Below, piece by piece: positions 3,448-42,715 of a stretch of 43,676 bases of DNA. The notes under the pieces were generated by a model that saw only the letters and a program-made list of their open reading frames with translations, was not told the DNA's origin and did no database searches. The position numbers and the translations under genes are program-made. Position 1 is the stretch's first letter. Every line of letters starts with the position of its first letter. This DNA is from Planctomicrobium piriforme (GTDB lineage: Bacteria; Planctomycetota; Planctomycetia; Pirellulales; UBA1268). Where the stretch lies: NCBI GenBank assembly GCA_945869735.1, contig CAMBPQ010000023.1:1-43676 (forward strand), written 5' to 3'.

Positions 3448-4380
3448 TCACGCCGAGGCAAGCACGTCGCCAAGCGTCTTCTGGAGGACGCCGGCGCTGG
3501 CCTTCAGTCCCTGTACCTCTTTCGGCCAGAGGTCGATTTCCAGCGTCTTCTCAGCGCCCGAGCGGCCCACGATGGTCGGCACGGAAATCGCCACGTCACG
3601 AATCCCATAGCAGCCGGTTTGGACGGTCGACACCGGGAGCACCCGCTTCGAGTCGAGCGTGATGGCGTGGATCACCTCGGCGATCGACACACCCACGGCG
3701 AATCCGGCGCCCGTCTTCTTCTTGATCATCTCGGCGCCAGAGGTCTTCGCCCGCTGGAAGACGTCGGCACCGAGTTTCGGGCTGTAGCCAGGATACTTCT
3801 CCAGCGGTAGGCCGGCGACGCTGGCGCTGCTCCAGACGGGAACCATGCTGTCACCGTGTTCGCCAAGGATCATCGCCTGCACCTGCGTGGCGGGAGCCGA
3901 CAGGTTCATGGCGAGGAGGCTGCGGAAGCGGAGCGTGTCGAGCAGTGTGCCGAGACCGATCACGCGGCCCCGGGGAAGGTTCAGTTCCTTCTCGGCGAGA
4001 TAGGTGAGGATGTCGACCGGGTTGGAGACGACCAACACGATGGCATCGGGCTGCGTGCCCTTCGCCTTGATGTTTCCCAGGATCGAACGAAAGAGCACGA
4101 CGTTGCGGTTGATGAGCGCGAGCCGGCTCTCGTCGGGCTTCCGCCGCAGGCCGGCCGTGATGCAGATCACATCGGCGTCGGCGAGCGCCTCGTAGCCGCC
4201 AGCAGAGATCTTCTGGTCGGCGATCGCCGCGGTGCCGTGGAGCATGTCGAGTGCCTGACCGTCGGCAAGATCCGCGTTGGCGTCGACGAGCACGATCTCA
4301 TGCACAATCCCGCCCACTTGGAGCGCGAAGCCCGCCGACGACCCCACGATGCCACCACCGCCGATGATGCCGACCTTCAT
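3448..4380 (-). CDS. Lactate/malate dehydrogenase family protein of the microcompartment locus
   Basis: NAD-dependent 2-hydroxyacid dehydrogenase of the LDH/MDH superfamily, 310 residues, the usual length. It has the Rossmann loop GGGGIVG near 7-13, the acidic NAD-ribose residue in LVDAN, the catalytic GEHGDS with H175, and the substrate-binding arginine R151 in LDTLRFR. The specificity loop reads AGLRRKPDESR (76-86). The residue equivalent to LDH Gln102 is R80, as in malate dehydrogenases, while the rest of the loop resembles lactate dehydrogenases, so substrate choice is uncertain. It is the last gene of the microcompartment operon, 45 bases after the aldolase. In the planctomycete compartment an enzyme of this kind is thought to recycle NADH made by the aldehyde dehydrogenase. 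I see no clear encapsulation peptide at either end. Confidence 0.9.
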   Translation of the reverse strand: MKVGIIGGGGIVGSSAGFALQVGGIVHEIVLVDANADLADGQALDMLHGTAAIADQKISAGGYEALADADVICITAGLRRKPDESRLALINRNVVLFRSILGNIKAKGTQPDAIVLVVSNPVDILTYLAEKELNLPRGRVIGLGTLLDTLRFRSLLAMNLSAPATQVQAMILGEHGDSMVPVWSSASVAGLPLEKYPGYSPKLGADVFQRAKTSGAEMIKKKTGAGFAVGVSIAEVIHAITLDSKRVLPVSTVQTGCYGIRDVAISVPTIVGRSGAEKTLEIDLWPKEVQGLKASAGVLQKTLGDVLASA

Positions 4381-4425
4381 GCGCTCGTGCTCCTCTTTTC
4401 TCGGGTGGTGTTCTTTCGCGGCCGG

Positions 4426-5328
4426 TCAGGCCGCCGCAATGCCCAACTGCTTGCAGACCTGCTCGGTGACAACCTTGACGAGCGCCTCGGTGTCGAGGCC
4501 GGCCGGTGCCATCGGACGGGTGGCGTTGTCCGGATCAGCACCCATCGGGTGGGGAGCATCGAAGGCCTTTCGTGCCACGCCCGTCGTGCCCCAGCTGTCG
4601 CGAAACACATCGTTGGCGCAGATGTCACAGTTTTCCATGTTCTTCTCGAGCCGCGGGTCGGTGTAGCCCCATCCAGCCTTGAGATCGAGAAGTTCCTTCG
4701 TCTCCTGCTTGGTCAGGTAGGTCACCCGGCCGAGGTCCTTCGAAAGCATGAGAATCCGGCAGTAAGCGTCGAGGATCTCGGTCCACCAGTAGGCCTTCTC
4801 GACCGTCTCGCCGAAGCTGACGGTGCCGTGGTTGGCGAGGATCACGACGTTCGACTGCTTCACGAACGGCTTGACGGTGTCGGCAAACTTCTGGCCGCCG
4901 GGGGTCTCGTACTTTGTGATCGGCACATCGCCGAGAAATACCTCGACCTCGGGGAGCACGCATTGCGGGATCGGCTCGCGGGCCACGGCGAAGGCGGTGG
5001 CGTGCGGCGGGTGGCAGTGAACCACCGACTTGATCTCGGGCCGCTCCTTCATGATCGTAAGATGCAGGAGAATCTCGCTCGACCGTTTGCGGTTGCCACC
5101 GATCTGCTTGCCCTCCATGTCGACGATACAGAGGTCGGAGGGCTTCATGAAGCCCTTCGAGATCATGGTCGGCGTGCAGAGCACCTCGTTGGGGCCGAGG
5201 CGGAACGAGATGTTGCCGTCGTTGCCGGCGGCGAAGCCTTTGTTGTAGATCCGCCGACCGATGTCGCAGATCTCTTCCTTGAGCTGGGAAAGGGACTTGT
5301 CGGACATCTTGGGGGTGATGGTTGCCAT
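4426..5328 (-). CDS. Class II aldolase (fuculose/rhamnulose-1-phosphate type) with C-terminal encapsulation peptide
   Basis: Zinc-dependent class II aldolase/adducin-family protein, 300 residues. Metal ligands are H104 and H106 in HCHPPH and H167 in NHGTVSFG, with the acidic E85 in SSEILLH; the phosphate-binding GNDGNIS is at 36-42. It likely splits L-fuculose- or L-rhamnulose-1-phosphate into DHAP and L-lactaldehyde, the entry reaction of the planctomycete microcompartment pathway. The family is usually about 215 residues. The extra C-terminus has a Cys pair (C234, C237), a Pro/Ala linker and an amphipathic helix LDTEALVKVVTEQVCKQLG (278-296) that looks like an encapsulation peptide. The start has a strong Shine-Dalgarno, GAAGGAG, about five bases upstream. 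The exact sugar cannot be told from sequence. Confidence 0.92.
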   Translation of the reverse strand: MATITPKMSDKSLSQLKEEICDIGRRIYNKGFAAGNDGNISFRLGPNEVLCTPTMISKGFMKPSDLCIVDMEGKQIGGNRKRSSEILLHLTIMKERPEIKSVVHCHPPHATAFAVAREPIPQCVLPEVEVFLGDVPITKYETPGGQKFADTVKPFVKQSNVVILANHGTVSFGETVEKAYWWTEILDAYCRILMLSKDLGRVTYLTKQETKELLDLKAGWGYTDPRLEKNMENCDICANDVFRDSWGTTGVARKAFDAPHPMGADPDNATRPMAPAGLDTEALVKVVTEQVCKQLGIAAA

Positions 5329-5498
5329 GAGTGCTCCTTCGGGTGGCTGGGGGTGATTCGAGTGGGGGGTGAGTCTTGGGGTGGCGGCGGTGTTCGCGTC
5401 CTAACGATTCTTGCCCACAGTGCCGGTCGCGGCCGGTGTGCGGATCCGGGAATCCCGCCGGATTGCGGTGTGGCTTCTGGTAGTGCGGGTCGTGACGG

Positions 5499-5780
5499 TC
5501 ATGACGGGATATCCAGGTGGTCGACGAGGGCGGCGATGGAGGCATCGACGGGCTTCTCCGCGGGAAGAAACGGCTGGGCCGCCTCGCCCCCCTCGCTGAA
5601 CGCGACGAGTTGGCCGTCACCGGCGCCGAGGTCGTCCCAGGCGACGAGCGGTTCAGCCAGGCCGTCACCGGCGGTGAGGTCGCCCGCCGCCAAAGGCACA
5701 ACGAGTCGCAGCACGCCGCCCCGCATCGTGGGATGGGGTTCGACGAGCGTCACCGTACCGATCGTTTTACCGAGTCGCAT
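5499..5780 (-). CDS. BMC-P shell vertex protein (EutN/CcmL family)
   Basis: Pentameric microcompartment vertex protein of 93 residues. It starts MRLGKTIGTVTL, as in EutN/CcmL, and has the typical core ending of VAWDDLGAGDGQLVAFSEG. Five-fold vertex proteins close the icosahedral shell. This is one of three paralogues in the operon and the most divergent in the middle. The ATG at 5780 was chosen because the fold begins there and AGGAG lies about eight bases upstream; a longer in-frame start exists but adds an unrelated 14 residues. A 170-base gap separates it from the aldolase. Confidence 0.9.
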   Translation of the reverse strand: MRLGKTIGTVTLVEPHPTMRGGVLRLVVPLAAGDLTAGDGLAEPLVAWDDLGAGDGQLVAFSEGGEAAQPFLPAEKPVDASIAALVDHLDIPS

Positions 5781-5895
5781 CGTGTCGTCTCCTCTTCTCG
5801 CAGGCTGGATCTGGGACGGCATGAGGTTTCTCGCGGGGGCAGGATAGCCCCATACTCGTCACGCTCACGCCGATCCCTTCGCCTTCATCGTGGTG

Positions 5896-5935
5896 GTGCT
5901 TGTGCTTGTGCTTGTGCTGATGCTTGTGGTGCTGA
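5896..5935. repeat. Short tandem repeat, CTTGTG-type
   Basis: A microsatellite of about six CTTGTG-like hexamers lies between the BMC-P gene and the RpiB-like cargo gene. In the operon mRNA it reads as CAAGCA repeats. It occupies most of the 184-base spacer together with low-complexity flanks. No gene is visible in it. Confidence 0.7.
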
Positions 5936-5964
5936 TAGTGGTTGTTGGTAAGTCTGGTCTTGTG

Positions 5965-6720
5965 TCAGTGGGTGTGGCCTTTGCAGCCGCAGCCCGCGGG
6001 GGCGGCGGCGAGCTCCACCGGCACGGACGTGGAAGGACCGCGATGGAAGTCGCCGCAGAGCCGCTCGAGTGCCCCGGCCGGAAATGCGGCCGGGTCGACC
6101 ACCAGCAGATTCGCGGCGGCGTCGGTGGCCGCGGCAGCGAGGCTTGCAGCATCCCGGGCGGTCACTGCCCGCAGACTCGCGGAGCGGTTCGCCAGGATCA
6201 CGGCGACGGCAGGCCGGCCTGTGAGGAGCACGCCGCGGGCCGCGTCCTTCGAGGCATGAACAGCAAGGGCCGCGATCACGTCGGTGAGCCCCGATGATGG
6301 GAGGTGCTGCGCCTGAAGGATGGCCCGGGAGATCGCGGCGGCACGTCCGGAGGCGTCACCGCGACAGGCGGCCTGAGCGACCATGAACGGTCGGCCGGCT
6401 GTCGCGGCCGGTGTGGCCCCGGAATAGCGAATAAAGGCAATCCCAACCTCTTTGGCGCGATCGCGGGCCGAGGGCGTGATCACCGCGCTGGCATGGATCA
6501 CGACCTGGCTCACGCTTGACGGCACGCGCTCCAGATGGGCCAGCGTGACCACCCGCTCGGTGATGGTGAGGCCAGGCGTCGTTGGGCCTTCGGGCAGGAC
6601 AGCGGGGCCTGGCGTCGAGGCGGGGGTGAGAGGCGAAGCCAACTGCGTTGCACCAATGCGTCGGATGACCTCGGTGACGAGGGCCTGCACTGCAGCGGCA
6701 TCCAGATGCGGAGTGTTCAT
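5965..6720 (-). CDS. Microcompartment cargo protein with encapsulation-peptide-like N-terminus and RpiB/LacA-like C-terminal half
   Basis: 251 residues, not a well-recognised enzyme. Residues 7-23 (AAAVQALVTEVIRRIG) form an amphipathic helix like the N-terminal targeting peptides of the aldehyde dehydrogenase and PduL in this operon, followed by a Pro/Thr-rich linker. A middle segment holds VITPSARDRAKEVGI, a motif that recurs in proteins of other microcompartment loci. The later part (roughly 155-215), with VILANRSASLRAVT followed by AAANLLVVDP, resembles the RpiB/LacA sugar-phosphate isomerase core (IAAN..giRAa..., aNvl). The usual catalytic Cys/Gly loop is not evident, so activity is doubtful. 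The C-terminus is Cys/His-rich (GCGCKGHTH). It overlaps the upstream BMC-P gene by four bases (ATGA), indicating translational coupling. Cargo role is well supported by context; the isomerase likeness is my inference. Confidence 0.75.
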   Translation of the reverse strand: MNTPHLDAAAVQALVTEVIRRIGATQLASPLTPASTPGPAVLPEGPTTPGLTITERVVTLAHLERVPSSVSQVVIHASAVITPSARDRAKEVGIAFIRYSGATPAATAGRPFMVAQAACRGDASGRAAAISRAILQAQHLPSSGLTDVIAALAVHASKDAARGVLLTGRPAVAVILANRSASLRAVTARDAASLAAAATDAAANLLVVDPAAFPAGALERLCGDFHRGPSTSVPVELAAAPAGCGCKGHTH

Positions 6721-6980
6721 GGGTTGTCAACCAAGGCGATGGTGCTCCAGCGGGCGGGTGTCGCGTCGCTCTTGAGGATCTCCCGGAGCAGCCGGCCGTC
6801 ACTCGTGATCACGACCGTGTCACCGATTCCCGCCGCCACCGTGTCGATGGCGATCTGGGGGTCGCCATCGGGCGACCGGCGGTCGGCCATCAGCGGCTGC
6901 ACGACGAGCATACGGCTGCCATCGAGCGAGCGGTGCTTCACCGTCGCCGTCGCCGTACCGATGATCCGGGCCAGTTGCAT
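6717..6980 (-). CDS. BMC-P shell vertex protein (EutN/CcmL family)
   Basis: Pentameric shell protein of 87 residues with the family pattern: MQLARIIGTATATVKH at the N-terminus, a central LVVQPLM strand, then VAAGIGDTVVITSDG (the conserved D.vgAG.GdxVlv region) and ARWSTIALVD at the end. It is the shortest and most EutN-like of the three vertex paralogues here. Its stop overlaps the start of the RpiB-like cargo gene by four bases, and it lies 41 bases after the aldehyde dehydrogenase. The start is ATG without a clear Shine-Dalgarno. Confidence 0.93.
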   Translation of the reverse strand: MQLARIIGTATATVKHRSLDGSRMLVVQPLMADRRSPDGDPQIAIDTVAAGIGDTVVITSDGRLLREILKSDATPARWSTIALVDNP

Positions 6981-7021
6981 GGGTGTGACAGTCGGGTCTG
7001 GAGGTGGGTCGTGCCTGGGAA

Positions 7022-8509
7022 TCAGGAGCGGACGGTGGACGCGCTGCCGAGGATTCGGAGATCGTCGACGAGCGTGCAGCGCCGCTGCCGGGTGAACGTG
7101 AGCGGGGTGGTGACGCCCTCGCCGGTCGGCGTGGCGATCGAGAACGACAGGTAGCCCTCGCCGCCAAGGCCGAGGCCGGCGACGCTCGGGCCGTTCTTCA
7201 CGAACAACGTGGTGTCGAGGAGTCGGCCCATCTTTGTCATGGTACGAACGTCGTTGGAGTGAATGATGGCCGTGTGGCGGAAGCCGTGCTCGCTCTCGTG
7301 GGCCAGGCGGATCGCCTCGTCAGCGTCCTTACAGCGGACGAAGGGTAGGAAGGGCATCATCTGTTCAGTCGGCACGAACGGGTTGTCGTTGTCGGTCTCG
7401 CCAAACACGAGTTCGAGGCCGTCGCGGCTCGCCGCACCAGCCGCCTTGGCGAGCAGCGACGCATCTTGGCCGAGCAGGTCTTTGCAGGGCACCAGGTGAC
7501 GGTGGGCCCCTTCGCCGGCCATCACGATCGCCCGTTTGGTCAGGGTGTCGACCTGCTGGGCATTGAGTCGCAGGCCGCCTGCCCGCTCCATCGCCGCCAT
7601 CATCCGGTCGAACACGCCGGCCACGACGAACACCTGTTTCTCGCCGATGCAGAGCAGGTTGTTGTCATACGCCGCGCCGGCGATGATCGACCGTGCAGCA
7701 TTATCGAGGTCAGCGGTCTCGTCCACGACCACTGGCGGGTTGCCAGGACCGGCCACGATCGCCCGCTTGCTCGATTGCAGCGCCGCCTTGGCGACGGCGG
7801 GGCCACCCGTCACGCAGATCAACTTCACGCCGCGATGGTTGAAGAGCGCGCCGGCCGATTCGAGCGAAGGCTCGGCGATGAGTGAGATGAGGTTGTCGAT
7901 ACCGATGTCGCGGTGGATCGCCGCGTTGAACCGGCGCACGCCCTCCGCCGCGACCATCCGGCCACTCGGGTGTGGGTTGACCACTACCGTGTTGCCACCG
8001 GCGATCATGTTGATCGCGTTGCAGGCGATCGTGGGGAGCGAGTGGGTGACTGGCGTGATGGCGCCGATGACTCCGAACGGGGCGTGTTCGATCACGGCGA
8101 GACCGTGATCGCCGCTAAACACCTCGCTCTGCATGAACTCGACGCCCGGCACCTTCTCGCCGAGAACTTTGAGCTTGCCGATCTTGTGGTCGAGCCGGCC
8201 GATTTTCGTCTCGGCAAACTCCATGCGGCCGAGTTCCTCGGCATCATCGATCGCGATCCGCCGCACGTGGGCGACCGCTTTGCGGCGGCCTTCGACGCCG
8301 AGCCGCTCGAGCTGCTCGAAGGCCTCCGTGGCGGCGCGGACGGCCTCGTCGACGCTGCCGAAGATGCCATTGGCGCCGGCGAACGATCCGGCGGCGGACG
8401 GGGGAGTCGACGGGCTGGGCGCGGCGGCCGGCTTCGCGGCGCTGCTGGTGATTTCGGCGATCACCTGGCGGACGATCGCGGCGATGTCGGGGGCGGAGGC
8501 AGTGCTCAT
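7022..8509 (-). CDS. CoA-acylating aldehyde dehydrogenase, PduP-like, with N-terminal encapsulation peptide
   Basis: Microcompartment-type acylating aldehyde dehydrogenase, 495 residues. The catalytic cysteine is C287 in [12 protein letters not shown], the signature of PduP/EutE-like enzymes; [15 protein letters not shown] and [13 protein letters not shown] are the family cofactor-binding segments. In the inferred pathway it oxidises L-lactaldehyde with NAD and CoA to lactyl-CoA. Residues 8-22 ([15 protein letters not shown]) form an amphipathic helix followed by an Ala/Pro/Ser linker to about 45, the classic encapsulation-peptide arrangement. It sits between two BMC-P genes, 13 bases after the first. 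GGAG lies eight bases before the ATG. Family and localisation are secure; the exact aldehyde is inferred from the aldolase and the operon type. Confidence 0.95.
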
Positions 8510-8522
8510 ATGTTGGGCTCCA

Positions 8523-8831
8523 TCACTTTCGGCTAAAGACTTCGGTGCCCTCGACGCGGACGGTGTCGATCAGGCCGATCACCACGGCGTCGATGGGGAG
8601 AGACTTGGTTTCGGGTGTCAGGCGAGCGCTCGAGCCTTGTGTGACGAGGACGAACTGCCCCTCGCCGGCGCCGAGGGTGTCGACGGCAATGAAGGTGCGG
8701 CCTGTCGAGACGAGCTTCGACCGCGTCTTCTCGTCGAGCCGGTAGGGCTCGACGACGAGCAGTCTGTGTCCGGTCATCGACGCGGTCTTCTGCGTGGCCA
8801 CCACGGAGCCAGTCACCAAGGCGACAAACAT
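8523..8831 (-). CDS. BMC-P shell vertex protein (EutN/CcmL family)
   Basis: Pentameric vertex protein, 102 residues. It starts [15 protein letters not shown], includes [10 protein letters not shown], and has the conserved [24 protein letters not shown] segment (split here as [12 protein letters not shown] plus LVTQGSSAR). The C-terminal tail [11 protein letters not shown] is longer than in the 87-residue paralogue. Its start codon shares one base with the stop codon of ackA, so translation is probably coupled to it. Confidence 0.93.
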
Positions 8832-10069
8832 CAGGCACCTTTCCCATTCTTGTTGTGTTGATCCACCAGCAGGTCACGCGCCTGCCGGGCGACAATCAGT
8901 TCTTCATTCGTGGGGATCACCCACACGGCGACTCGCGACGAGGCAGCGTGGATCGAACGCTCGCCGGATGCCTTGGCCCCGTTCTTCACGGGGTCGATCA
9001 CGATTCCGAGCTCCTCGAGGCCTGCGAGTGTCTCGGCCCGCGTGAGCGGCGAGTTCTCACCGATGCCCCCCGCGAAGCCGATGGCGTTGAGGCCGCCGAG
9101 TTCCACGATGCCCCCGCCGAGCCAGTGCCGGATCGACGCCACATACACGTCGATCGCCGTCCGGGCCCGCTCGCTGCCCGCCGCGGCCGCATCCTCGAGG
9201 TCGCGCATGTCGCCCGACGTGCCTGACATGCCGGCCAGGCCGGCCTGGCCGGCGAGTTCGTCGAGCAGGTCCTCGAATCCGCGGCCGGTCTGCTTCGCCA
9301 TGTGAAGCAAGGCGAAGGGATCGAAGTCGCCGGCCCGATTGTTCTGGGGCAAACCCGACTGCGGGCTCATTCCCATCGATGTTCCCACGCTCTTGCCATC
9401 CCTGATCCAACAGACGCTGCTCGAGCCACCGAGGTGGCAGGAGATCGCCCGCAGAGGCTTCGCCTCCGATGGCACGAGTGCCCCGAGTCGCTCCGCCACG
9501 AAGCGATGACTCGCTCCGTGGAAGCCCCAACGTCGCACGAGATGCTTCTCGGCCCAGTCGGTCGGCACCGCGTAACGTGCGTTTCTGTCGGGAATAGTCG
9601 CGTGGAACCCCGTCTCGAATGACGCGACCAGCGGCACGCCCGGCATCCGTTCCCCGAGCAACCGCATCGCCCGCACATAGGGCGGGTTATGTGCCGGGGC
9701 CACGGCGGCCATCTCCTCCATGGCGGTGAGGACGTTCGGGCCAACCCGCACGACGCCGCTCACGCGGCCGCCATGCACGGCTTTGAAGCCCACCGCCGCC
9801 ACCTCGTCGACGCTCGTCAGAGGTCCGCCCTCGGCCGTCAGTTGCTCGAGCGCCGCCTGGAGGGCGACGGCGTGGTCGGGCACCGGCATCACAGCCTCGA
9901 GCGCACGGCCACCGGCGGTCGAAAAGACACGGCTTTCCCTAGCGCCGATCCGCTCAACGCCACCGCGGGCCAATTCCCGCTCGGCACCGGCTTCGCCCGC
10001 CCTTTCGGGCAGGTCGAAGAGCCGGTACTTGAAGCTCGTGGACCCGAGATTTGCGACGAGGATTTTCAT
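8831..10069 (-). CDS. ackA: Acetate/propionate-type kinase of the microcompartment pathway
   Basis: Acyl-phosphate kinase of the ASKHA fold, 412 residues. Family features: phosphate loop NLGSTSFKYRLFD at the N-terminus, AVHGGRVSG, SFETGFHATIP, RWGFHGASHRFV and CHLGGSSSVC. It would transfer phosphate from an acyl-phosphate (lactyl-phosphate in the inferred pathway) to ADP, the ATP-yielding step. The segment equivalent to the MGTRSGDIDP of acetate kinases reads LPQNNRAGDFDP, a substitution near the active site that could reflect a substrate other than acetate. The start at MKILVANLG was chosen because the fold begins there; an upstream in-frame start adds eight unrelated residues. It lies 82 bases after the second BMC-H gene. 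Confidence 0.93.
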   Translation of the reverse strand: MKILVANLGSTSFKYRLFDLPERAGEAGAERELARGGVERIGARESRVFSTAGGRALEAVMPVPDHAVALQAALEQLTAEGGPLTSVDEVAAVGFKAVHGGRVSGVVRVGPNVLTAMEEMAAVAPAHNPPYVRAMRLLGERMPGVPLVASFETGFHATIPDRNARYAVPTDWAEKHLVRRWGFHGASHRFVAERLGALVPSEAKPLRAISCHLGGSSSVCWIRDGKSVGTSMGMSPQSGLPQNNRAGDFDPFALLHMAKQTGRGFEDLLDELAGQAGLAGMSGTSGDMRDLEDAAAAGSERARTAIDVYVASIRHWLGGGIVELGGLNAIGFAGGIGENSPLTRAETLAGLEELGIVIDPVKNGAKASGERSIHAASSRVAVWVIPTNEELIVARQARDLLVDQHNKNGKGA

Positions 10070-10151
10070 GGTTGAAGCCGTCCGCACGCCCAACGCTTGC
10101 GGTTCGGAACTGCCTGGGGCGGGATGTGTCGATCCGTCTCCAACACCTGAA

Positions 10152-10421
10152 TCACGAGAAAAATGACGCCACGAGAGTGTCGGCCGGACGCGGAATCACG
10201 TGGCTGGCGATGAGTTCGCCGACCTGCTGAGCCGCGTTGGCACCGGCCTCGACGGCCGCACGCACGCTGCCCACGTCACCCTGCACGACCGTCGCCACGT
10301 AGGCGTTGCCGATGCTTACCCGCTTGAGGATCTTCACGTTGGCCGCCTTGGCCATTGCGTCGGTGGCCTCGATGAGGCCCACGAGTCCCTTGGTCTCCAG
10401 TAGCCCGATTGCCGTATTCAT
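10152..10421 (-). CDS. BMC-H shell hexamer protein
   Basis: Single-domain BMC-H protein, 89 residues: MNTAIGLLETKGLVGLIEAT, then KILKRVSIGNAYVATVVQGDVG and a C-terminal VIPRPAD. These are the usual pattern of a facet-forming hexamer with the pore loop near SIGNA. It is one of two hexamer paralogues. The start was placed at 10421 because GAAGGA lies six bases upstream and the domain begins there. The same frame runs further upstream to 10691, but through antisense sequence of the neighbouring BMC-H gene. The 92 bases before it are strikingly AT-rich and pyrimidine-rich in the mRNA sense compared with the rest of the operon. Confidence 0.95.
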   Translation of the reverse strand: MNTAIGLLETKGLVGLIEATDAMAKAANVKILKRVSIGNAYVATVVQGDVGSVRAAVEAGANAAQQVGELIASHVIPRPADTLVASFFS

Positions 10422-10513
10422 CTGATGTCCTTCGAGAGAGAAATGAAACGTGTGAAAGAAACGAAACTGGTCAATAAAGTGAAGAAAACAAGCTTTCTTG
10501 ATCCATCGACCGA
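10422..10513 (-). promoter_or_regulatory. AT-rich leader between the two BMC-H genes, possible processing or internal promoter element
   Basis: In mRNA sense this stretch is T/C-rich (runs such as TTTCGTTTCTTTCAC) and contains a small hairpin, AAGAAA-6 nt-TTTCTT, at 10482-10499. It ends in a good ribosome-binding site (GAAGGA). Base composition differs sharply from the GC-rich surroundings. It could be an internal promoter, an RNase-processing site or a translation enhancer that raises shell-protein output. No clear -35/-10 pair is visible, so the role is inferred. Confidence 0.35.
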
Positions 10514-10798
10514 TCAGCCGCTCACGGGCAGCACGACCTGCAGGTCCTCGTGTGGACGCGCGATCACCTGCACGCTCACGACCTCGCCGATCCGGCCGCC
10601 GGCCGCTGCACCCGCGTCGGTCGCCGCCTTCACCGCAGCCACATCGCCCGACACAAAGGCCGTGACGAGTCCGCTGCCGATTTTGTCCCAACCCATGAAG
10701 GTGACGTTTGCCGCCTTCATCATCGCGTCGACCGCTTCAACAAGCGTGACGAACCCCTTCACCTCGATCATGCCGAGGGCATCGACGTTCTTAGCCAT
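10514..10798 (-). CDS. BMC-H shell hexamer protein
   Basis: BMC-H facet protein of 94 residues from this start: [20 protein letters not shown], a pore-loop region [20 protein letters not shown], and a C-terminal VIARPHEDL. The start at 10798 gives the standard length, with AGGAG about 11 bases upstream. The frame is open without a stop back to an ATG at 10954, which overlaps the pduL stop (ATGA) and has GAGG seven bases upstream. That start would add a 52-residue basic, Ala/Gly-rich N-terminal extension beginning [11 protein letters not shown] kept the short form because single-domain hexamers rarely carry such a tail, but the coupling geometry makes the long form a real alternative. Confidence 0.9.
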
Positions 10799-10950
10799 CT
10801 GTTGCACCGCTCCTGTCTCGAACAACCAACCAGCCTTGGCGGGGCCGCCCCCGCCGACCGCACCGGCACACGCCGGCTGAACGGTCTTGTCTTGTCGTGT
10901 CTGTGACTGCCGCGGCCGGGACGCTTTCGCCCGCGCGGCCTTCTTCTTCG

Positions 10951-11688
10951 TCATGTCTGCCTCACGAGTTCCACGCTCTCGGCGTGGTCGAGGTCGGCGG
11001 CATTGCCCTCGTCGGTGTCGATGTGCACTTCGAGTTTGCTCGTGGCATCGGCCCGCACGAGCAGGTCGCGAAACACCGTGCCGCAGGAGCCCTTGATCGC
11101 CAGACTCATGCGGTCGCCGTTCCTGACGCCGAAATGGTCGGCGTCGGCGAAGCTCATGTGCACGTGCCGTTCCGCTCGGATCACGCCCTCGCCAAGTTCG
11201 ATGGCACCGGCGGGGCCCACGAGGACGCAGCCCGGGGTGCCCGTGATCTTGCCGCTGGCACGAACGGGTAGATCGATGCCGAGGGAAATGCCGTCGGTAA
11301 ACGCGAGTTCGACCTGCGAAGCCTTGCGGGTGGGCCCAAGCACGCGGACCGTCGGCAGCATTTTTCGTTTGGGCCCCACGAGCATTACCGTCTCCTCGGC
11401 GGCATAGAAGCCGTCCTGATAGAGATCCTTCATTGGCGTAAGGTTTCGGCCTGCACCGAACAGCTTTTCGACGTGCTCGTCGGTGAGGTGGCAGTGACGG
11501 GCCGAGATACTCACCACGAGCTTCGGTTCGGCATGTCGCGAGGTGGCGGTGGCCTGTGAAGGAGGAACGCCGGAAGATGCCAGCACGATCTCACGCACGA
11601 TCCGTTCTACCGACGTGCGGTCAAAACTTGTGAATGGGGAGGCGAGCGTGGTCATGGTGGTCATAGAGGTCATGGTGGCGATGGTCAT
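10951..11688 (-). CDS. pduL: PduL-type phosphate acyltransferase with N-terminal encapsulation peptide
   Basis: Phosphotransacylase of the PduL (not Pta) family, 245 residues. It has two PduL half-domains with the zinc-ligand signatures RHCHLT (H65, H67) and RHVHMS (H175, H177). In the inferred pathway it converts lactyl-CoA and phosphate to lactyl-phosphate and frees CoA inside the shell. The N-terminus is Met/Thr-rich (ATGACC repeats), then residues 22-36 ([15 protein letters not shown]) form an amphipathic helix like known encapsulation peptides, joined by a Ser/Thr/Ala linker to the fold near 56. The start overlaps the deoR stop by four bases (ATGA); several later in-frame Met codons (6, 9, 12) are possible starts. 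No Shine-Dalgarno is visible, consistent with coupling. Confidence 0.95.
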
Positions 11689-34744: not shown

Positions 34745-35512
34745 TCAGCCCCCGAACGCCTTGGCGATCCCGAGAAAGTCGTCGGCCTTCAGGCTCGCAC
34801 CGCCGACCAGGGCTCCGTCGATGTCAGGCTGGGCGGCGAGGTCGGCCGCATTGTCGGGTTTCACGCTGCCGCCGTACTGGATCCGCACCTTGGCGGCCAC
34901 GGCCGGCGACGCGAGCGAACCGAGCAGCGAGCGGACCAGGGCATGCACCTCCTGGGCCTGCTGCGGCGTGGCCACCTTGCCGGTGCCAATCGCCCAGACC
35001 GGCTCGTAGGCGACCACCACCGTCTCGAGTTCGTTGGGGGCGAGCCCGGCGAGCGAGCCCTTCACCTGCGTCGTCACGACCTGCTCGGTGCGGCTGCCTT
35101 CCCGCTCTTCCAGCGTTTCGCCAACGCAGACGATCGGGATCAGCCCGGCGGCCAGGGCCGCCTTGGCCTTCGCATTGACGAGCGTGTCGGTCTCGCCGAA
35201 GAGTGTCCGCCGCTCGGAGTGGCCAAGGATCACGTAGCGGCAGCCAAGATCGAGAAGCATCGGCGGAGCCACTTCCCCAGTGAAGGCGCCGCTCGGCTTG
35301 TCGTGCATGTTTTGGCCGCCGAGGGCCACAGCCGACGCAGCCGCCTGAAGCGCGGAGCCGACCGTCTCGAGGTAGGCGGCAGGCGGGCAGAGGACGAGTT
35401 CGGTCGAGCCGGCCTCGGCGACCCGGGCGGCCACGGCGGCGGTCAACTCCCGCGCCTTCGCCCGATCGAGGTTCATTTTCCAGTTGCCGGCGACGATCTT
35501 CCTGCGGGACAT
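34745..35512 (-). CDS. tpiA: Triosephosphate isomerase
   Basis: 254-residue TIM barrel. Catalytic K12 in GNWKMN, H98 in ILGHSERR and E170 in [11 protein letters not shown], with the phosphate loop YGGSVKPDN. It interconverts DHAP and glyceraldehyde-3-phosphate and could use DHAP from the microcompartment aldolase, though the genes are unlinked. The start has GGAG six bases upstream. It heads the string tpiA-secG-yicC-gmk-rpoZ-coaC-coaB. Confidence 0.95.
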
Positions 35513-36057
35513 GACAGGCTCCAGGGTGGTGGCCCGGTGCCGTCGACACCGCACGACGGGAGGGCACGGAGGATTATCCTAGCGATTCCGGCCGGGCCCG
35601 TGTCGCGCGACTGAGATTTTGATCCTTCGGGCACCGAAGAGGGCCGAGGCCATCGCCACGTCGTGAACCCAAGGCTCAGGTCCCAGAGATCCTGGGTGGT
35701 CTGCTCAGCGTGCGAGATGACGACAGTGTCGAACCCAAAGAGAAAACCGGCGAGCGCCGACACCAGCGACCAGACGACAATCCTGTTCATGGGATCCCGC
35801 TTCCTCCCGGCAGGGCATGTCTCGGGTAGAGATCTCGAACCATCCCAGCACGCAAAGTGCTGGTCTTCAGTTCGATAGTGCATTCTGCGCCCAGAGGCAG
35901 TTCCATTTCTTGTCGAAGAAGGGCGGTTGGATCCCATTTTCTGGAACTGACCCTCGCTACCGTGGTGGTGCTCCTTCCGGTCACCAATCCCCCTGCATCA
36001 GCGCCCGCCTTACGAGCGCTGACCGAGGGCTCGACGCCACAACACTGCCACCGCCAC
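35513..36057. other. Decayed region between tpiA and the cysteine-synthase remnant
   Basis: Besides the transporter stub at 35660-35790 I recognise no gene. Its mixed content suggests several small deletions. The upstream region of tpiA (promoter) must lie at its left edge, but no clear element is visible. Confidence 0.45.
35660..35790 (-). pseudogene. N-terminal stub of a sugar-porter MFS transporter
   Basis: A good ribosome-binding site (GGAGGAAG) precedes MNRIVVWSLVSALAGFLFGF followed by DTVVISHAEQTTQDLW, the first helix and loop of sugar-porter MFS proteins. Similarity then stops after about 43 residues; the frame runs on into the tpiA leader without further homology. The start and ribosome-binding site are intact, so a truncated peptide may be made. 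Confidence 0.65.
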
Positions 36058-36498
36058 GCCGTCTTGGTGCTAATCGGCAACACGCCGCTCGTGCCGCTCT
36101 TCTTTCCCGAGGAAGAGCTGACGATTCACGCCAAAGCCGAGTTCCTCAATCCCACCGGTTCAATCAAGGATCCGATGGCCGCCATGCTCCAGGGCGAGGC
36201 CCCCTGCTGTCACAGTATCGAGGGCGTGGCCGGAGGCCACCTGCCTCCCCTGCTCGACGGCGGCGCGATCGATGCCGCCGAAAAAGTGGGCTCGGCGGAG
36301 GCACTGCTGATGACGCGACGCTTGGCCCGCGAGCACGGCTTCCTGGTGGGCACCTCGTCGGGCGCCAACGTGGTGGCCGCGCTCCGCGTCGCCCGCAGCC
36401 TGCCCGCCGGCGCGCGGGTGGTGACGATCCGCTGTGATCGAGCAGAGCGTTACTTCTCGACGCGGCTCTTCACCACCGAGCCAAGGGGCTGCCGTTGA
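36058..36498 (+). pseudogene. Internally deleted cysteine synthase/cystathionine beta-synthase
   Basis: The start matches the PLP-enzyme family: IGNTPLVPLFF and LNPTGSIKDPMA, with the PLP-binding lysine in SIKD. After DPMAAML the central cofactor-binding region (about 150 residues) is missing; the frame resumes at IEGVAGGHLPP and continues to LVGTSSGANVVAAL and TIRCDRAERYFST, the C-terminal part. Without the central domain the enzyme cannot fold normally. Confidence 0.7.
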
Positions 36499-36564: not shown

Positions 36565-36700
36565 TCGGGTGCCTTCAAGAAGCTCGGATCGCGAGCGATG
36601 GGAAAGCGGGTGGCGGGCGTGATGGCAGCGCGGATACGAAAGATGTGGCGGGCGTATTCCCCGCGCTCGCGATTGGGGCTTCCTGCCGGCAACTCACCGG
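36565..36700 (-). repeat. Second repeat module, inverted copy
   Basis: On the minus strand this matches the insert of repeat copy F: GGAAGCCCC followed by GCGAGCGCGGGGAATACGCC and, further on, CCCATCGCTCGCG. The copies differ at many positions. It abuts and slightly overlaps the stop end of the sigma-54 activator gene. Confidence 0.65.
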
Positions 36701-37773
36701 GGACGAGGCGCTCGGGCAGAGCGGCTGGCCATGCGTTCCGGACAGGCTTCGGCCACGAGCTTCGTCATCGTGTTGGGGCACACGCCCAGCAGCCGTGCGG
36801 CTTTCGCAAAATGGCCCTGGGTTGCCTCGAGCGCCTCGCGCACGGTGCGTCTGCGGAGCTCACGCAGGTTGAACGTTTTCGCCGCGGCCTCGTGGGCGGC
36901 CGGCATGTCGCCGCGGTCGCCCACGCCGTCAGGCAGCCGCTGTCGTGCGGGCAGTATCCCGAGAACCTCGTCAAGAACGGCTTCCCGCGTGTCGGCGAAC
37001 ACATACAGCTTCTGGATCGTCTGCGAGAGCTGCCGAACGTTGCCGGGCCAGTCGTGCTCCACCAGGCGGGCCAGCGTAGCGGGCCCAGGCACCCAGGGCG
37101 GTTGTCTGTACCGTGTCGCGTAATGGGCCGAGAAGTGCGCCACGAAACGCGGAATGTCATCGGAGCGGTCGCGAAGCGGTGGAACGACGAGGTGGACGGT
37201 GTTGAGCCGATAGAGCAGGTCTTCGCGAAAGGCTCCCTCCGCAACGGCAGCCTCGAGGTGGCGGTTGGTGGCGGCGATGACCATCACGTCGACCGGCTCG
37301 CTCTGCGGGGAGCCGACCGGCGTGACCTCCCGGCGCTCGAGAAACCCGAGCAGCTTTGGCTGCAGGTCGGCCGGCATGTCACCGATCTCGTCGAGGAAGA
37401 TGACGCCGCCATCGGCCGAGCGGATCGCCCCGCGGGCGGGACCGCTGGCCCCGGTGAAGGCCCCCTTCTCGTGGCCGAAGAGCTGGCTTTCGGCGATGGC
37501 CGCTGGGATGCCCGCGCAGTTGACCGAGATGAACGGCTTGTCATGCCGCGGGCCGGCCGCGTGGATCGCCCGCGCAACCTCTTCCTTGCCGCAGCCCGTC
37601 TCGCCGGTGATGAGCGTCGTGCACTCGAACTTCGCCACCCGGCAGATCGCCGTCTCGAGCCGTTGGATCGATGCCGATCCGCCCGTCATTCGCGCCCAGC
37701 GGGGCAGGCTGACGAACGGAGACACTCGCGCCGCCGGTCCGGCTGGCGGCGTATTGAGTTCATAATCGTGCAT
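36694..37773 (-). CDS. Sigma-54-dependent transcriptional activator without a receiver domain
   Basis: 359 residues. The AAA+ domain is complete: Walker A GETGCGKE (57-64), the sigma-54-contacting GAFTGA loop (104-109), Walker B GGVIFLDEIGD, and the arginine-finger segment FREDLLYRLNTV. A Fis-type helix-turn-helix closes the protein (EATQGHFAKAARLLGVCPNT). Only about 30 residues precede the AAA+ domain, so no receiver, GAF or PAS sensor is attached; control must come from another protein, its own expression level or a small N-terminal signal. It is divergent from the PEP-CTERM gene 363 bases away, which has a near-consensus sigma-54 promoter, so that gene is its likely target. Confidence 0.92.
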   Translation of the reverse strand: MHDYELNTPPAGPAARVSPFVSLPRWARMTGGSASIQRLETAICRVAKFECTTLITGETGCGKEEVARAIHAAGPRHDKPFISVNCAGIPAAIAESQLFGHEKGAFTGASGPARGAIRSADGGVIFLDEIGDMPADLQPKLLGFLERREVTPVGSPQSEPVDVMVIAATNRHLEAAVAEGAFREDLLYRLNTVHLVVPPLRDRSDDIPRFVAHFSAHYATRYRQPPWVPGPATLARLVEHDWPGNVRQLSQTIQKLYVFADTREAVLDEVLGILPARQRLPDGVGDRGDMPAAHEAAAKTFNLRELRRRTVREALEATQGHFAKAARLLGVCPNTMTKLVAEACPERMASRSARAPRPR

Positions 37774-38046
37774 GGCTGGTGCCCTTCCTCTGGGCCGGGG
37801 GCGTGGTATCGCCCGCCGAACAGTGACCGGCCCCGTCGAGCCGTTCCCTGCGAAAAAAAAAGTTTACTCGCCGTCGCAAAGTGTGCGAGCCAGGAATCGC
37901 AGTATTTTTGAGCCACTCCCAGTTTCTGCGACGCAAGCGGCCGTCCGTCCCATCTGTGGGCTGCTCTGGGAGTCGCCCCGGGTTGTTTCTGTTTTGAGTT
38001 ACTTGAAACCGCGTTGACGGCCGAAATCACTGCCACCAGGGAGTTC

Positions 38047-38062
38047 GGCACGTGACTTGCAT
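38047..38062 (+). promoter_or_regulatory. Predicted sigma-54 (RpoN) promoter of the PEP-CTERM gene
   Basis: The sequence GGCACGTGACTTGCAT has the -24 GG and -12 GC separated by exactly ten bases and matches the consensus GGCACG-N4-TTGC(A/T) at every fixed position. Transcription would start near 38072, about 65 bases before the ATG of the PEP-CTERM gene. The neighbouring activator is of the matching type. Confidence 0.75.
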
Positions 38063-38136
38063 TTGGGCGGGTGACGACGCAGGGCGGCGTCGGTCATCGA
38101 TTCTCGTGCGATCTTCCCCCTTACCAGGTGTTCATC

Positions 38137-39132
38137 ATGAAACCTTGTCTGCTGACGGTGGCGGCCCTCGTGATTTCGGCATTCCTGGCGCCGCCGGCTT
38201 CGGCTGAGACCACGATCTCGCAGTGGAACTTCAACACGACCGTGAGCGGCTCGTTCAACCGCCCCTGGACGGGAACCGTGCTCTCCGGGACCGTGCTTGG
38301 CTACGGTCAGGGCGCCCCCTCGGCTCCCCTCTCGAGCACCCTCGCCAACGGGGCGGCCGGTGATCCTGGGACCGTCGTCACCGGCACCACGTACAACCGT
38401 TCGGCGACGATCAATCCGCCGCTCCTGACAGCGGCGAACTCTGCGGCGGGCGTGATGTTCCAGGCTCCCACCACCGGCATGAATCCCGGTGAGGCTGTGA
38501 AGCTCTCATGGAGCCAGACGGTGGGCTTCCGATCCAGCCGCTATTGGCAACTGCTCGTGAGCACGAGCGGCACCGCGGGCGCCTTCTCGGCTCCCTCGGG
38601 CGGCACCGGTTCGTCGATTAGCCAGTTCGTCAACGGGCTCTCTTCCGGCACGGCTCCGATCTCCGGCACGGCCACGGTCAACGTGAGCTCGGGCGGCATG
38701 ATGGACTTCCGCACGATCAACGGCAACTGGCTCGCGCAGGGAGTGACGACGACCGGCACGCTCACGGCACCCCTTGCTGCGGGATTCGTGGACGATATCT
38801 CCTACACGCTCCCCACCGGCCAGGGCTACGAAAATAATGCCAACTTCGCGTTTGCGATCGTCGGCCTCTGGGATCCGAATCTATCCGCCACGAGCGGCAC
38901 GACCGGTCTCGTGTCGTCGTTCGCGGGCACCGACTCGACCGATATCACCAATGGCTACAACCGCTCGCTCAGCAGCGGCGGCAGCATGCGGCTCGACCTC
39001 ATGACCGTCTCCGCGGTACCCGAGCCGAGCACGGTGGCCTTGGCAGGCGCTGGTCTGGCATTTGGGGCATGGGCGATCGTGCGACGGCGTGTTCACCGCG
39101 CGTCGCCGGACGCGGCCGGTAGCGGCGTGTAG
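38137..39132 (+). CDS. PEP-CTERM-anchored exported protein
   Basis: 331 residues. Signal peptide MKPCLLTVAALVISAFLAPP with cleavage near PASAE. The mature chain is rich in Gly, Ser and Thr (repeated SGT/TGT) with no enzyme motif; a beta-sandwich surface domain is likely. The C-terminus has VPEPS (294-298), a hydrophobic helix and the Arg cluster IVRRRVHR, the PEP-CTERM sorting signal handled by exosortase. The tail of 14 residues after the Arg cluster is longer than usual. It lies 75 bases downstream of the sigma-54 promoter and starts a three-gene string of exported proteins. The substrate or function is unknown. Confidence 0.9.
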   Translation: MKPCLLTVAALVISAFLAPPASAETTISQWNFNTTVSGSFNRPWTGTVLSGTVLGYGQGAPSAPLSSTLANGAAGDPGTVVTGTTYNRSATINPPLLTAANSAAGVMFQAPTTGMNPGEAVKLSWSQTVGFRSSRYWQLLVSTSGTAGAFSAPSGGTGSSISQFVNGLSSGTAPISGTATVNVSSGGMMDFRTINGNWLAQGVTTTGTLTAPLAAGFVDDISYTLPTGQGYENNANFAFAIVGLWDPNLSATSGTTGLVSSFAGTDSTDITNGYNRSLSSGGSMRLDLMTVSAVPEPSTVALAGAGLAFGAWAIVRRRVHRASPDAAGSGV

Positions 39133-39192: not shown

Positions 39193-41265
39193 ATGGGTCT
39201 GTCTCTAGGGAGCCGTCTTGCGGCGATCGTGTCGGCGGCGCTCATCGCCGTGGCTTTCGCGTTCGACGCGTGCGCCGAGGTCACCTTCGACTGGGCGACG
39301 GTGGGCAACGCCAACAACGCCGCCGACACGCTCACTATGACGAAGGTCAACGGGAGCCAGCCGGGCGACGGCACCAGCGGCTACGGCTCCGTGGCCTACG
39401 ACTATTCGATCGCCAAGCGCGACGTCACCAATGCGCAATATGTTGAGTTTCTCAATAAGGTCGACCCCAGCGGCACAAGCACGACGCTCTACCTTGCGAA
39501 CATGTCGGACGCGGTGATCGGCGGCGTGAGTTATCCAGCCTACAGCGGCGGCATCGACAAGAATCTCGGCGCCGCGGCCGGGAGCCGCTACAGCGTCAAG
39601 TCGGGGCAAGACAATTTCCCCGTCGTGCAGATTAACTGGTCGCGAGCGGCGCGATTCGTCAACTGGCTGGCCAACGGCCAGGGCTCGGGCGGCACCGAAA
39701 GCGGCGTGTACGACATGGCGGTTTTTGCCAGCAACTCCTTCGCCACGCCCCCGCCGCGGGCCGTCGGCGCCCAGATTTTTCTGCCCAGTGAAAATGAGTG
39801 GTACAAGGCAGCCTACTACGATCCGACGCTGGCCGAAGGTGCCGGCGGCTACTGGCAATATGGCACGCGGAGCAACACATCACCCGCATCGGTCGGTCCG
39901 CCAGGTACATCCTACAGTGCGAACATCGGCGCCGGTACCACCGGCGGGTCGGGTGGCACGTCTGCTCTCACGTTTGCCACGACGGGAGCGGTGTTCAACA
40001 AGGACCTCATCTATCTCACAAACGTCGGCGATTATACGACGGCCACGAGCTACTACGACCTCGACGACCTCGACGGGCTGATCTACAACTGGACGGAAGC
40101 GACGAGAGAGAACAGAACCATCGCCGGCCAAATGCTGCCCGTCTATCGTGGCGGCTCGTGGCAGAACAACGAGGGGGCCTCGGGTGCCGCGTTTCGCAAT
40201 TCCGGGAACGGCGCGGGCGTCAACAGCGGCCAATATCAATACTGGGGCATCCGCGTGGGCACCGTTGCGGCCGTGCCCGAACCGGGCGTGGCTGCTTTGG
40301 CATGCTTGAGCCTTGCCTGCGGGTGCTGGCTGCTGCGGCGGCGACGGTCTGGTTCCCACAACCGAGTCGAGCCGCGACGGGGGTTTACGTTAGTCGAACT
40401 GCTCGTCGTGATCGCGATCATCGCCACACTCATCGGCCTGCTCTTGCCCGCGGTCCAGGGCGCCCGCGAGTCCGCGCGGCGAACGTCATGCATGAACAAC
40501 CTCCGGCAGATCGGCCTCACGATCCATGCCTACGCCACCGCCCAGCGGGAACGGCTCCCCGACGCCCTGAGCAACATCAACTCCGCGCTTGTGGGGTCGG
40601 GGACCGCGACCTACCCGCTGCACGTCGTGATTCTCGCCTATGCGGAGGATGAGAAGCTCCGCAGCCTGTTCAAGTCGAGTTCAACGTTTCTGGACACGCA
40701 AGTACCCGCGGTGGCCATGTTCAACTGCCCGAGCGATCCTTCGAAGACTACGGTCAACTCGACCACGAAGGGCACGAGCAGTTACCTGAGTAACGGCGTC
40801 TTGTTCTATCTCAAGCCCAAGCTCTCGAAGGTGGCTGACGGAACCTCGAAGACGATCGCGATCGCCGAGAGCTACACGCAGACGACGTCGGGCTCGGCAG
40901 GGCCTGTGGTCATGACGCAGTACAACAGGCGGACGAGCGACAGGGCGCCGACGTTTGCTCACCCCACGAACGATACCGCGACCGTGGGGCGTTCCAACCG
41001 GCCTGGCTCCGCGACCGCGGGCGCCTGGAAAGACAGCTACAACTGCCAGGCTCCCAACGCGCTTGCCGATGCGACGTCGCCGCCGATTCAGTCCGCGCCG
41101 TCCGTCAACGCGGCCGATAGCAAACTACTCCAAGCATGCCATGGCGACACGATCAACTTCTGCATGATTGATGCTAGCGTGCGGTCGGCATCCGCCTCCG
41201 GCGACTCGGTCGTCTTCTGGTCGGCGGTGACGCCCGCGGGACAAGAACAGGTCGACCTCCCGTGA
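39193..41265 (+). CDS. Fusion of a PEP-CTERM SUMF1-like protein and a DUF1559 pseudopilin
   Basis: 690 residues in one frame. Signal peptide ([20 protein letters not shown]), then a formylglycine-generating-enzyme-like (SUMF1) domain from about 60 to 355: [40 protein letters not shown] and [11 protein letters not shown]. The VPEP motif is at 361-364 with a hydrophobic helix and RRRR at 382-385, a complete PEP-CTERM signal. Only nine residues later comes [17 protein letters not shown] (395 on), a type IV prepilin signal with Glu at mature +5, then a DUF1559 domain ([16 protein letters not shown] to the end). No stop or ATG lies between the parts. This may be a stop-loss fusion of two neighbouring genes, an annotation-like artefact of a sequencing error, or a real fusion. 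TGGAG lies eight bases before the ATG. Confidence 0.85.
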
Positions 41266-41320: not shown

Positions 41321-42715
41321 ATGCCTGCTCGTCCCATGGTTTCTCGTGCGTTGGCGTTCGCCCTCGCCGCCGCGTCGGCCTGCCGAGCCCACAGTGCTCA
41401 GGTCGAGCCTGCGGGGAGTCCCGTCGATCCGGTCACCGTGCGGCTCACGCTCAATCCGACGGCGCTCGACATGGATCGTCTGAGAGCCAGCAGGATGGGC
41501 TATATGCCTGCAGTGTTGAAGGCCATCGACACCAAACCGCCGGGCGTGGTCAAGGAACCCGCGTATGAGGGCACGCCGAGATACGGCGTCATCCGAGTGG
41601 GCAATGGCCCGAAATGTGACACGCCAGTCGTGATCGACGTGCTCAAGTCCGGAAGCCGGCTCTATGTCGACAGCAACCACAACGGCGATCTCTCGGACGA
41701 CGGCACGGGGAAATGGGATCTCACCAAGGAGATCAGCGGGGCAAACGTCGAGTTTGCCACCCGCTCCGTTCGGGCATCGTGGGGCACGCCTTCGGAGGAG
41801 ACCGAGACCGGGGAATACCGGATTTTCATCTTCCGGCGGCCCGAGGCGAGTGGGTTCTCGTTCGCCAAGATCTCAGGCCGCGAAGGCACCGTGACGCTCG
41901 GGGCAGGTGACGAGCGGGAGGGAAAGGAATACGCCATCGTGCTCGCCGAAAACACGAATGACGCCTTGTTCACCGTGCCGGTGAAGGGTGACCTGACCCG
42001 GCGGTTCGTCGAACTCTGCATCGATCTCGACGGCGACGGGACGTTCAAGGGGCTCATGACCAAGGAGGGGGACAAGGAACTTCGTGCACCGGAACGGTTC
42101 AACCTCGCCGACCCCTTCCAGGTCGACGGGCAGTGGTATATCGCCCGGCCGTCGATCAGCGGCGCCACCCTGACAATCACGCCGACGGCGCCGCCCGGCA
42201 GCGATGTGGCGTCGCTGCAGAAGCCTGTCGAGGTGCGGCCGCTGCTCGAACCGGGCGTGGTCGCTCCGGCCTTCACGGTCGAGACGCCCGAGGGCAAGCC
42301 GCTGAGCCTCGCCGACTTCAAGGGCAAGGTGGTAATTCTCGATTTTTGGGCGACATGGTGCGGCCCCTGCTTGGCCTCGATGCCCGGGCTCGAGAGTGTG
42401 TACCAGCGAGTCAAGGATCAGAACGTGGAGGTGTTGAGCGTCAACGTGTTCGACGATCGTGACACGTTCGGCGAATGGATCGCGGCCAACCGGGGCAAGA
42501 ACTACAATTTCACGTTCGCGTTCGATCCGGCGGCCAAGGATTCGCCCGAGAGCGTCGCCCGGCAAAAATACAACGTGCCTGGTTTGCCGACTCTCTACCT
42601 CATTGACCGTGAGGGCAAGGTGGCGGCGGCGTTCGTCGGAGTCAGCGAGGCCCGGCTCATCGAGGCCCTTGCGAAAATGGGCATTGAGGTCGCAGAAGAA
42701 AACGATGCCGAGTGA
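41321..42715 (+). CDS. Exported TlpA-like thioredoxin-domain protein
   Basis: 464 residues. Signal peptide ending near HSAQV. The first 300 residues have no known fold but include Asp-rich, EF-hand-like loops DSNHNGDLSDDG and DLDGDGTFKG. The C-terminal 150 residues are a TlpA/AhpC-TSA-type thioredoxin domain: GVVAPAFTVETPEGKPLSL, active site WATWCGPC with C347 and C350, and GLPTLYLIDREGKV. It would act as a periplasmic or surface disulfide reductase. GAGG lies eight bases before the ATG. It is the third gene of the exported string, 55 bases after the fusion gene. Confidence 0.9.
   Translation: MPARPMVSRALAFALAAASACRAHSAQVEPAGSPVDPVTVRLTLNPTALDMDRLRASRMGYMPAVLKAIDTKPPGVVKEPAYEGTPRYGVIRVGNGPKCDTPVVIDVLKSGSRLYVDSNHNGDLSDDGTGKWDLTKEISGANVEFATRSVRASWGTPSEETETGEYRIFIFRRPEASGFSFAKISGREGTVTLGAGDEREGKEYAIVLAENTNDALFTVPVKGDLTRRFVELCIDLDGDGTFKGLMTKEGDKELRAPERFNLADPFQVDGQWYIARPSISGATLTITPTAPPGSDVASLQKPVEVRPLLEPGVVAPAFTVETPEGKPLSLADFKGKVVILDFWATWCGPCLASMPGLESVYQRVKDQNVEVLSVNVFDDRDTFGEWIAANRGKNYNFTFAFDPAAKDSPESVARQKYNVPGLPTLYLIDREGKVAAAFVGVSEARLIEALAKMGIEVAEENDAE

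Follow-up and report, generated by a model that had tools for sequence, protein, structure and literature searches.

Genes at the locus

The window, that is, the whole stretch of 43,676 nucleotides that was analysed, is a complete contig (C23) of a genome of 3.17 Mb, and its gene content is planctomycete-like, with DUF1559, PEP-CTERM and microcompartment-like genes. The locus of interest comprises a gene on the reverse strand for a sigma54 enhancer-binding protein (hereafter EBP; ORF 36694-37773, 359 aa), a gap which, as originally predicted, measures 363 bp, and three genes on the forward strand which form a putative operon. The first of these (38137..39132, 331 aa) encodes a protein with a signal peptide and a PEP-CTERM signal (PF07589, 5.4e-06, residues 293-317), and an exosortase is encoded in the genome. 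The second (39193..41265, 690 aa) is a single ORF which fuses an FGE-sulfatase-like domain, a weak PEP-CTERM signal, an in-frame type IV prepilin N-methylation motif and DUF1559. The third (about 41321..42715, start uncertain) encodes an exported protein with a C-terminal TlpA/ResA-like thioredoxin domain. In the closest species the same join of FGE-sulfatase-like, PEP-CTERM and prepilin parts is visible, followed by a break in the frame (locus L076), and at another locus (L116) a PEP-CTERM gene overlaps a DUF1559-like gene.

Elsewhere in the window, the region between tpiA and the EBP gene (35473-36498) holds apparent remains of genes: a short beginning similar to that of a sugar transporter, with no Pfam match, where the closest species has a transporter-like ORF of 675 aa, and a fragment of a PALP (cysteine-synthase-like) gene. 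Judged by eye from the ORFs, a bacterial-microcompartment-like cluster lies at 3448-11688, with shell proteins, an aldehyde dehydrogenase, an aldolase, a lactate/malate dehydrogenase and a kinase.

The activator has no sensor domain

The description of the EBP draws on Pfam, NCBIfam, an alignment of its close relatives (group A, see below), a structure model and a tree. Pfam recognises Sigma54_activat (4.2e-62, residues 30-195), AAA_lid_14 and HTH_8 (2.4e-05, residues 309-337, above the cut-off of that family). In the group alignment the Walker A, GAFTGA, Walker B, sensor and arginine-finger segments are all intact; an AAA+ domain with Walker A and B, GAFTGA loop and arginine finger, followed by a Fis-type HTH at the C-terminus, is the architecture of the PF00158 class of sigma54 EBPs, and it is from this anatomy that we assign to the protein a probable function as sigma54 activator. 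In fold and in sequence it resembles ZraR, NtrX, FleQ and NtrC1, and the matches listed in a scan of named organisms are other EBPs only, at 35-49% identity.

Only about 28 residues stand ahead of the AAA+ core, in agreement with the original prediction of about 30 residues before an AAA+ domain with intact Walker, GAFTGA and Fis-type HTH segments. The open frame extends at most 30 codons upstream of the ATG, hence no receiver domain is possible. We rejected the idea of a larger activator that had been truncated: the frame is too short both in the window and in the closest relative, and no sensor domain was recognised in group A. In the structure model, which is of modest quality (mean pLDDT 66.6), residues 1-23 are predicted to be disordered (pLDDT below 50), the AAA+ elements start at residue 34 and the HTH occupies residues 303-343 approximately. 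The N-terminal segment, SPF...W-x-R, is conserved though it forms no domain: W26 is nearly invariant and R28 is invariant in the group alignment.

A predicted sigma54 promoter and a dyad array in the divergent gap

A putative sigma54 -24/-12 promoter, CGGCACGTGACTTGCA, lies at 38046..38061 on the forward strand, with a predicted +1 near 38072 and 75 bp before the ATG of the PEP-CTERM gene. The element GGCACG-N4-TTGCA which had been predicted upstream of the exported-protein genes is present at 38047-38061 exactly, with the exact GG-N10-GC spacing, and the sole departure from the longer sigma54 consensus is a C for T before the GG. As +1 is predicted around 38072, the GTG at 38071 should not be the start codon of the first gene, and the ATG at 38137 is the likely start. 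Our sigma54 scoring matrix is approximate, being built on the general consensus; the following shuffle test, which uses the exact consensus, is independent of it. Among 4000 dinucleotide shuffles of the 363 bp gap, a perfect forward core (11/11) appeared in 2, a perfect TCGCA-N5-TGCGA dyad in 2, and both in the same shuffle in none. Over the whole genome, the promoter 15-mer occurs no more often than a control pattern. Hence, the weight of the promoter comes from its position and its conservation and not from the motif alone. In the alignment with the closest species the promoter is identical at 16/16 positions, against 46/111 for the spacer which separates it from the third of the dyads described next.

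Three tandem dyads precede the promoter and constitute the likely activator site. Dyad 1 (37874..37888, TCGCA-AAGTG-TGCGA) matches the motif at 10/10 positions; dyad 2 (37897..37911, TCGCA-GTATT-TTTGA), 23 bp from the first, matches at 8/10; dyad 3 (37917..37931, TCCCA-GTTTC-TGCGA), 20 bp from the second, matches at 9/10. The dyads are thus about two helical turns from one another, and the array lies 124-167 bp upstream of the -24 element. When dyad 1 is compared with its counterpart in the closest relative, all 10 half-site letters are kept while all 5 spacer letters are changed. The binding site had been sought among two pairs of inverted repeats. The letters of the first, GTCGCA/TGCGAC at 37873-37932, turned out to be the outer edges of the three-dyad array, so that the guess came near but paired the repeats wrongly. 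The second, GTTTC/GAAAC at 37985-38009, falls in the spacer of which just 46/111 positions are shared with the closest relative, and we rejected it as activator site since it is not conserved.

The motif has a strict geometry. Upstream of group A EBPs, TCGCA-N5-TGCGA occurs 13 times, always with a spacing of exactly 5, while the same palindrome with spacings of 0-4 or 6-12 does not occur there at all; tandem arrays in these regions mostly have their dyads about 20-24 bp apart. In 2.07 Mb of related DNA (overlapping copies of one place being counted once), a triple array of the quality found in the window exists at three places only: the window, the orthologous locus of the closest species, whose EBP is 87% identical to that of the window, and a further locus, L228. 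Counts of the exact dyad per genome are modestly above control and most matches lie in coding DNA, hence such matches are meaningful only through their context.

Conservation of the arrangement among relatives

We searched 60 related genomes for relatives and obtained group A, the close relatives of the EBP, and a sister group B. Each is monophyletic in the tree (support 99/95 for A, 98/93 for B and 100/100 for A and B together), and the EBP of the window is a member of a monophyletic sensorless family. These genomes are fragmentary, the gene calls come from a home-made scorer and the regulon was sampled. A significant sigma54 site (p<=0.02) pointing away from the EBP is found at 12/24 group A loci, and 11 of these 12 sites lie 338-382 bp from the start of the AAA+ domain; no site points back toward the EBP at any of the 24 loci. 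In group B, a significant site is found at 1/15 loci. At most of the group A loci with a sigma54 site, a PEP-CTERM gene stands behind it.

About half of the group A loci have no linked sigma54 site, and several keep the dyads with no adjacent PEP-CTERM gene. This fits targets in trans or decay; it also fits a dyad which is mainly autoregulatory. One separate case is the second group A copy of the closest species (L080), where GAFTNA replaces GAFTGA and no sigma54 site is linked, as expected for a decaying copy.

The A/B family (best E <= 1e-85) is present in 38 of the 52 genomes with PEP-CTERM and in none of the 8 genomes without (Fisher p 1.2e-4, a test which ignores the shared ancestry of the 60 genomes).

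Putative unlinked targets

At two loci (L227 and L228), dyads, a sigma54 site and a PEP-CTERM gene are found together on contigs other than that of the EBP, and at a third (L229) dyads and site are found at a contig end. The original prediction had suggested looking for the same element before other PEP-CTERM genes. We scored the upstream regions (420 bp) of 59 sampled PEP-CTERM genes of the genus with the approximate sigma54 matrix: a site with a score >=13 is present in the forward orientation in 10 of them, in the reverse orientation in none. Both the conservation at related loci and the unlinked targets support the proposed pairing in which a sensorless EBP goes with a PEP-CTERM gene and its sigma54 promoter. 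In the window's own genome, we found no second target with intact dyads of the first type.

Other dyads were found in these regions. TCACC-N5-GGTGA dyads with a spacing of 5 number six in 11 regions picked for their sigma54 site (one of which scored just below 13) and none in 49 others. Within group A, TCACC dyads are found close to the start of the EBP itself at two loci of the subclade whose recognition helix is VHLNTMTRLVEE. Since such a dyad also occurs at one locus in the other subclade, the correspondence of helix and half-site is no more than suggestive. A third type of dyad, resembling GGGCGAATCGCCC, is seen upstream of the sigma54 sites of other PEP-CTERM genes (L253, L256, L259).

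We also noticed three loci, one in contig C13 of the same genome as the window (L123, about 380-860) and two others (L282, L298), where a sigma54 site lies far ahead of the PEP-CTERM gene. A strong hairpin comes after the site at L123, and the loci have a short similar ORF, M-VV-A-GLTSEEV..., of 18-24 aa, followed by TCACC-N5-GGTGA-like dyads; the element is possibly a sigma54-driven leader or a small RNA. Lastly, in contig C3 of that genome (position 60879, L119), a PEP-CTERM gene with stops and a change of frame keeps a near-consensus sigma54 site upstream.

Proposed mechanism and alternatives

Taking these results together, we consider it very probable that the sensorless EBP, the three dyads and CGGCACGTGACTTGCA form one sigma54 circuit driving the PEP-CTERM operon; this degree of confidence applies to the wiring (EBP, dyads and promoter) and leaves aside the mode of switching. 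The EBP, encoded divergently, would bind the three tandem dyads (centres at 37881, 37904 and 37924) and, by looping of the DNA, would contact RNA polymerase-sigma54 at 38046-38061, whereupon the operon would be transcribed. The sigma factor itself is available, as RpoN, whose absence would have spoken against the original prediction, is encoded in the genome (E 6e-60). With respect to the EBP gene itself, the dyads are about 100 bp upstream of the start, a position that would suit autoregulation. In relatives, EBPs of the same family may also act through such sites on PEP-CTERM genes to which they are not linked. As these unlinked genes carry the sites, the EBP would control in trans a small regulon of PEP-CTERM genes.

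The switching is a separate matter. Since the EBP has no sensor, it is probably either active by default, its own level then setting the activity, or controlled by a partner in trans. That a separate protein holds or switches the EBP, the wiring being the same, is quite conceivable by analogy with PspF-PspA and HrpS-HrpV. In one subclade, the candidate for this role is a MEKHLA (PAS-like) protein encoded just behind the PEP-CTERM gene; genes for standalone MEKHLA proteins (1.2e-49) and glutathione peroxidases are present in the divergent clusters of many group A relatives, and the conservation of SPF...W-x-R in a segment which forms no domain also agrees with a partner. However, the window's own operon has no MEKHLA gene, and no conserved neighbour of the EBP spans all of group A. 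More doubtful is the wider picture in which clade-specific sensorless EBPs are dedicated regulators of PEP-CTERM genes throughout this planctomycete-like order, the recognition helices and dyads of paralogues (TCGCA versus TCACC) having changed together and MEKHLA or another sensor in trans, its gene lying with those of the targets, setting the activity.

The wiring itself could be questioned in another way: the promoter would be real but activated by some other, sensor-bearing EBP, and the adjacent EBP would use the dyads for its own regulation only. The genome has about ten EBPs, and the dyads, close as they are to the start of the EBP gene, are retained at loci with no sigma54 site. We nevertheless find this improbable, for PEP-CTERM genes which are unlinked and have no EBP in their neighbourhood bear the same dyads together with a sigma54 site, and some dyads of a subclade whose recognition helix differs have the form TCACC-N5-GGTGA, the spacing being unchanged. 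As for chance matches of the -24/-12 element and of the repeats in GC-rich DNA, the genome-wide count of the consensus speaks for them but position, orientation, shuffle tests and conservation contradict them, so that we regard this origin as practically negligible and rejected it on the conservation tests.

We come back, then, to the single circuit of EBP, dyads and promoter. The best reading of these data is that sensorless activators control a regulon of PEP-CTERM genes which is separate from PrsK/PrsR.

Comparison with known systems

The PEP-CTERM sigma54 motif and PrsK/PrsR were described in Proteobacteria only, and more regulators of PEP-CTERM genes were expected to be discovered (Haft et al. 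2006, PMC1569441). That system consists of a receiver-domain activator, a histidine kinase and a 17-nt upstream motif ending in TTTACA (PrsK/PrsR/PrsT, PMC1569441). RpoN dependence was shown for pepA, a PEP-CTERM gene of the betaproteobacterium Aquincola (PMC9850573), and PEP-CTERM is absent from the main text of a 2025 survey of sigma54 regulons including Planctomycetota (PMC12316311).

Our locus shares with PrsK/PrsR a sigma54 -24/-12 promoter, an upstream motif, in some cases repeated, and an AAA+ activator of the Fis type, all before PEP-CTERM genes. It differs in several respects: the EBP of the window has no receiver domain, unlike PrsR; the motif is TCGCA-N5-TGCGA and not the 17-nt one; and the activator gene is divergent to its target. 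Against the PrsR model (TIGR02915) the EBP scores 257.8 bits, well below the cut-off of 502.6, with a match beginning only at model position 143, and no PrsR above the cut-off was found in the 22 genomes of the genus. A search for PrsK gave no match in these 22 genomes either, though it matched nowhere and had no positive control. TTTACA is absent from both strands of the 363 bp gap. The failure of the PrsR test and the absence of TTTACA lead us to conclude that sigma54 control of PEP-CTERM genes is here probably exerted by a different, sensorless family, as the original prediction had anticipated in calling for a control other than PrsK/PrsR.

Among the best matches to the AAA+ core, in sequence and in fold, are EBPs of the ZraR/NtrC type (PDB 1ojl, 1ny5); these are response regulators with receiver domains, unlike our EBP. 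The EBP shares with PspF and HrpR/HrpS of Proteobacteria an AAA+ domain and an HTH with no N-terminal sensor. The gene of PspF is also divergent to its target operon. The EBP scores 205.5 bits against the PspF model (TIGR02974), below the cut-off of 443.55, and it differs from PspF and HrpRS in having PEP-CTERM targets and in that no counterpart of PspA or HrpV was identified. The locus thus supplies a candidate regulator, a candidate binding site with a precise motif and a candidate promoter for a gap in PEP-CTERM regulation, and the comparison suggests that PEP-CTERM genes entered sigma54 control in two lineages by way of different activators.
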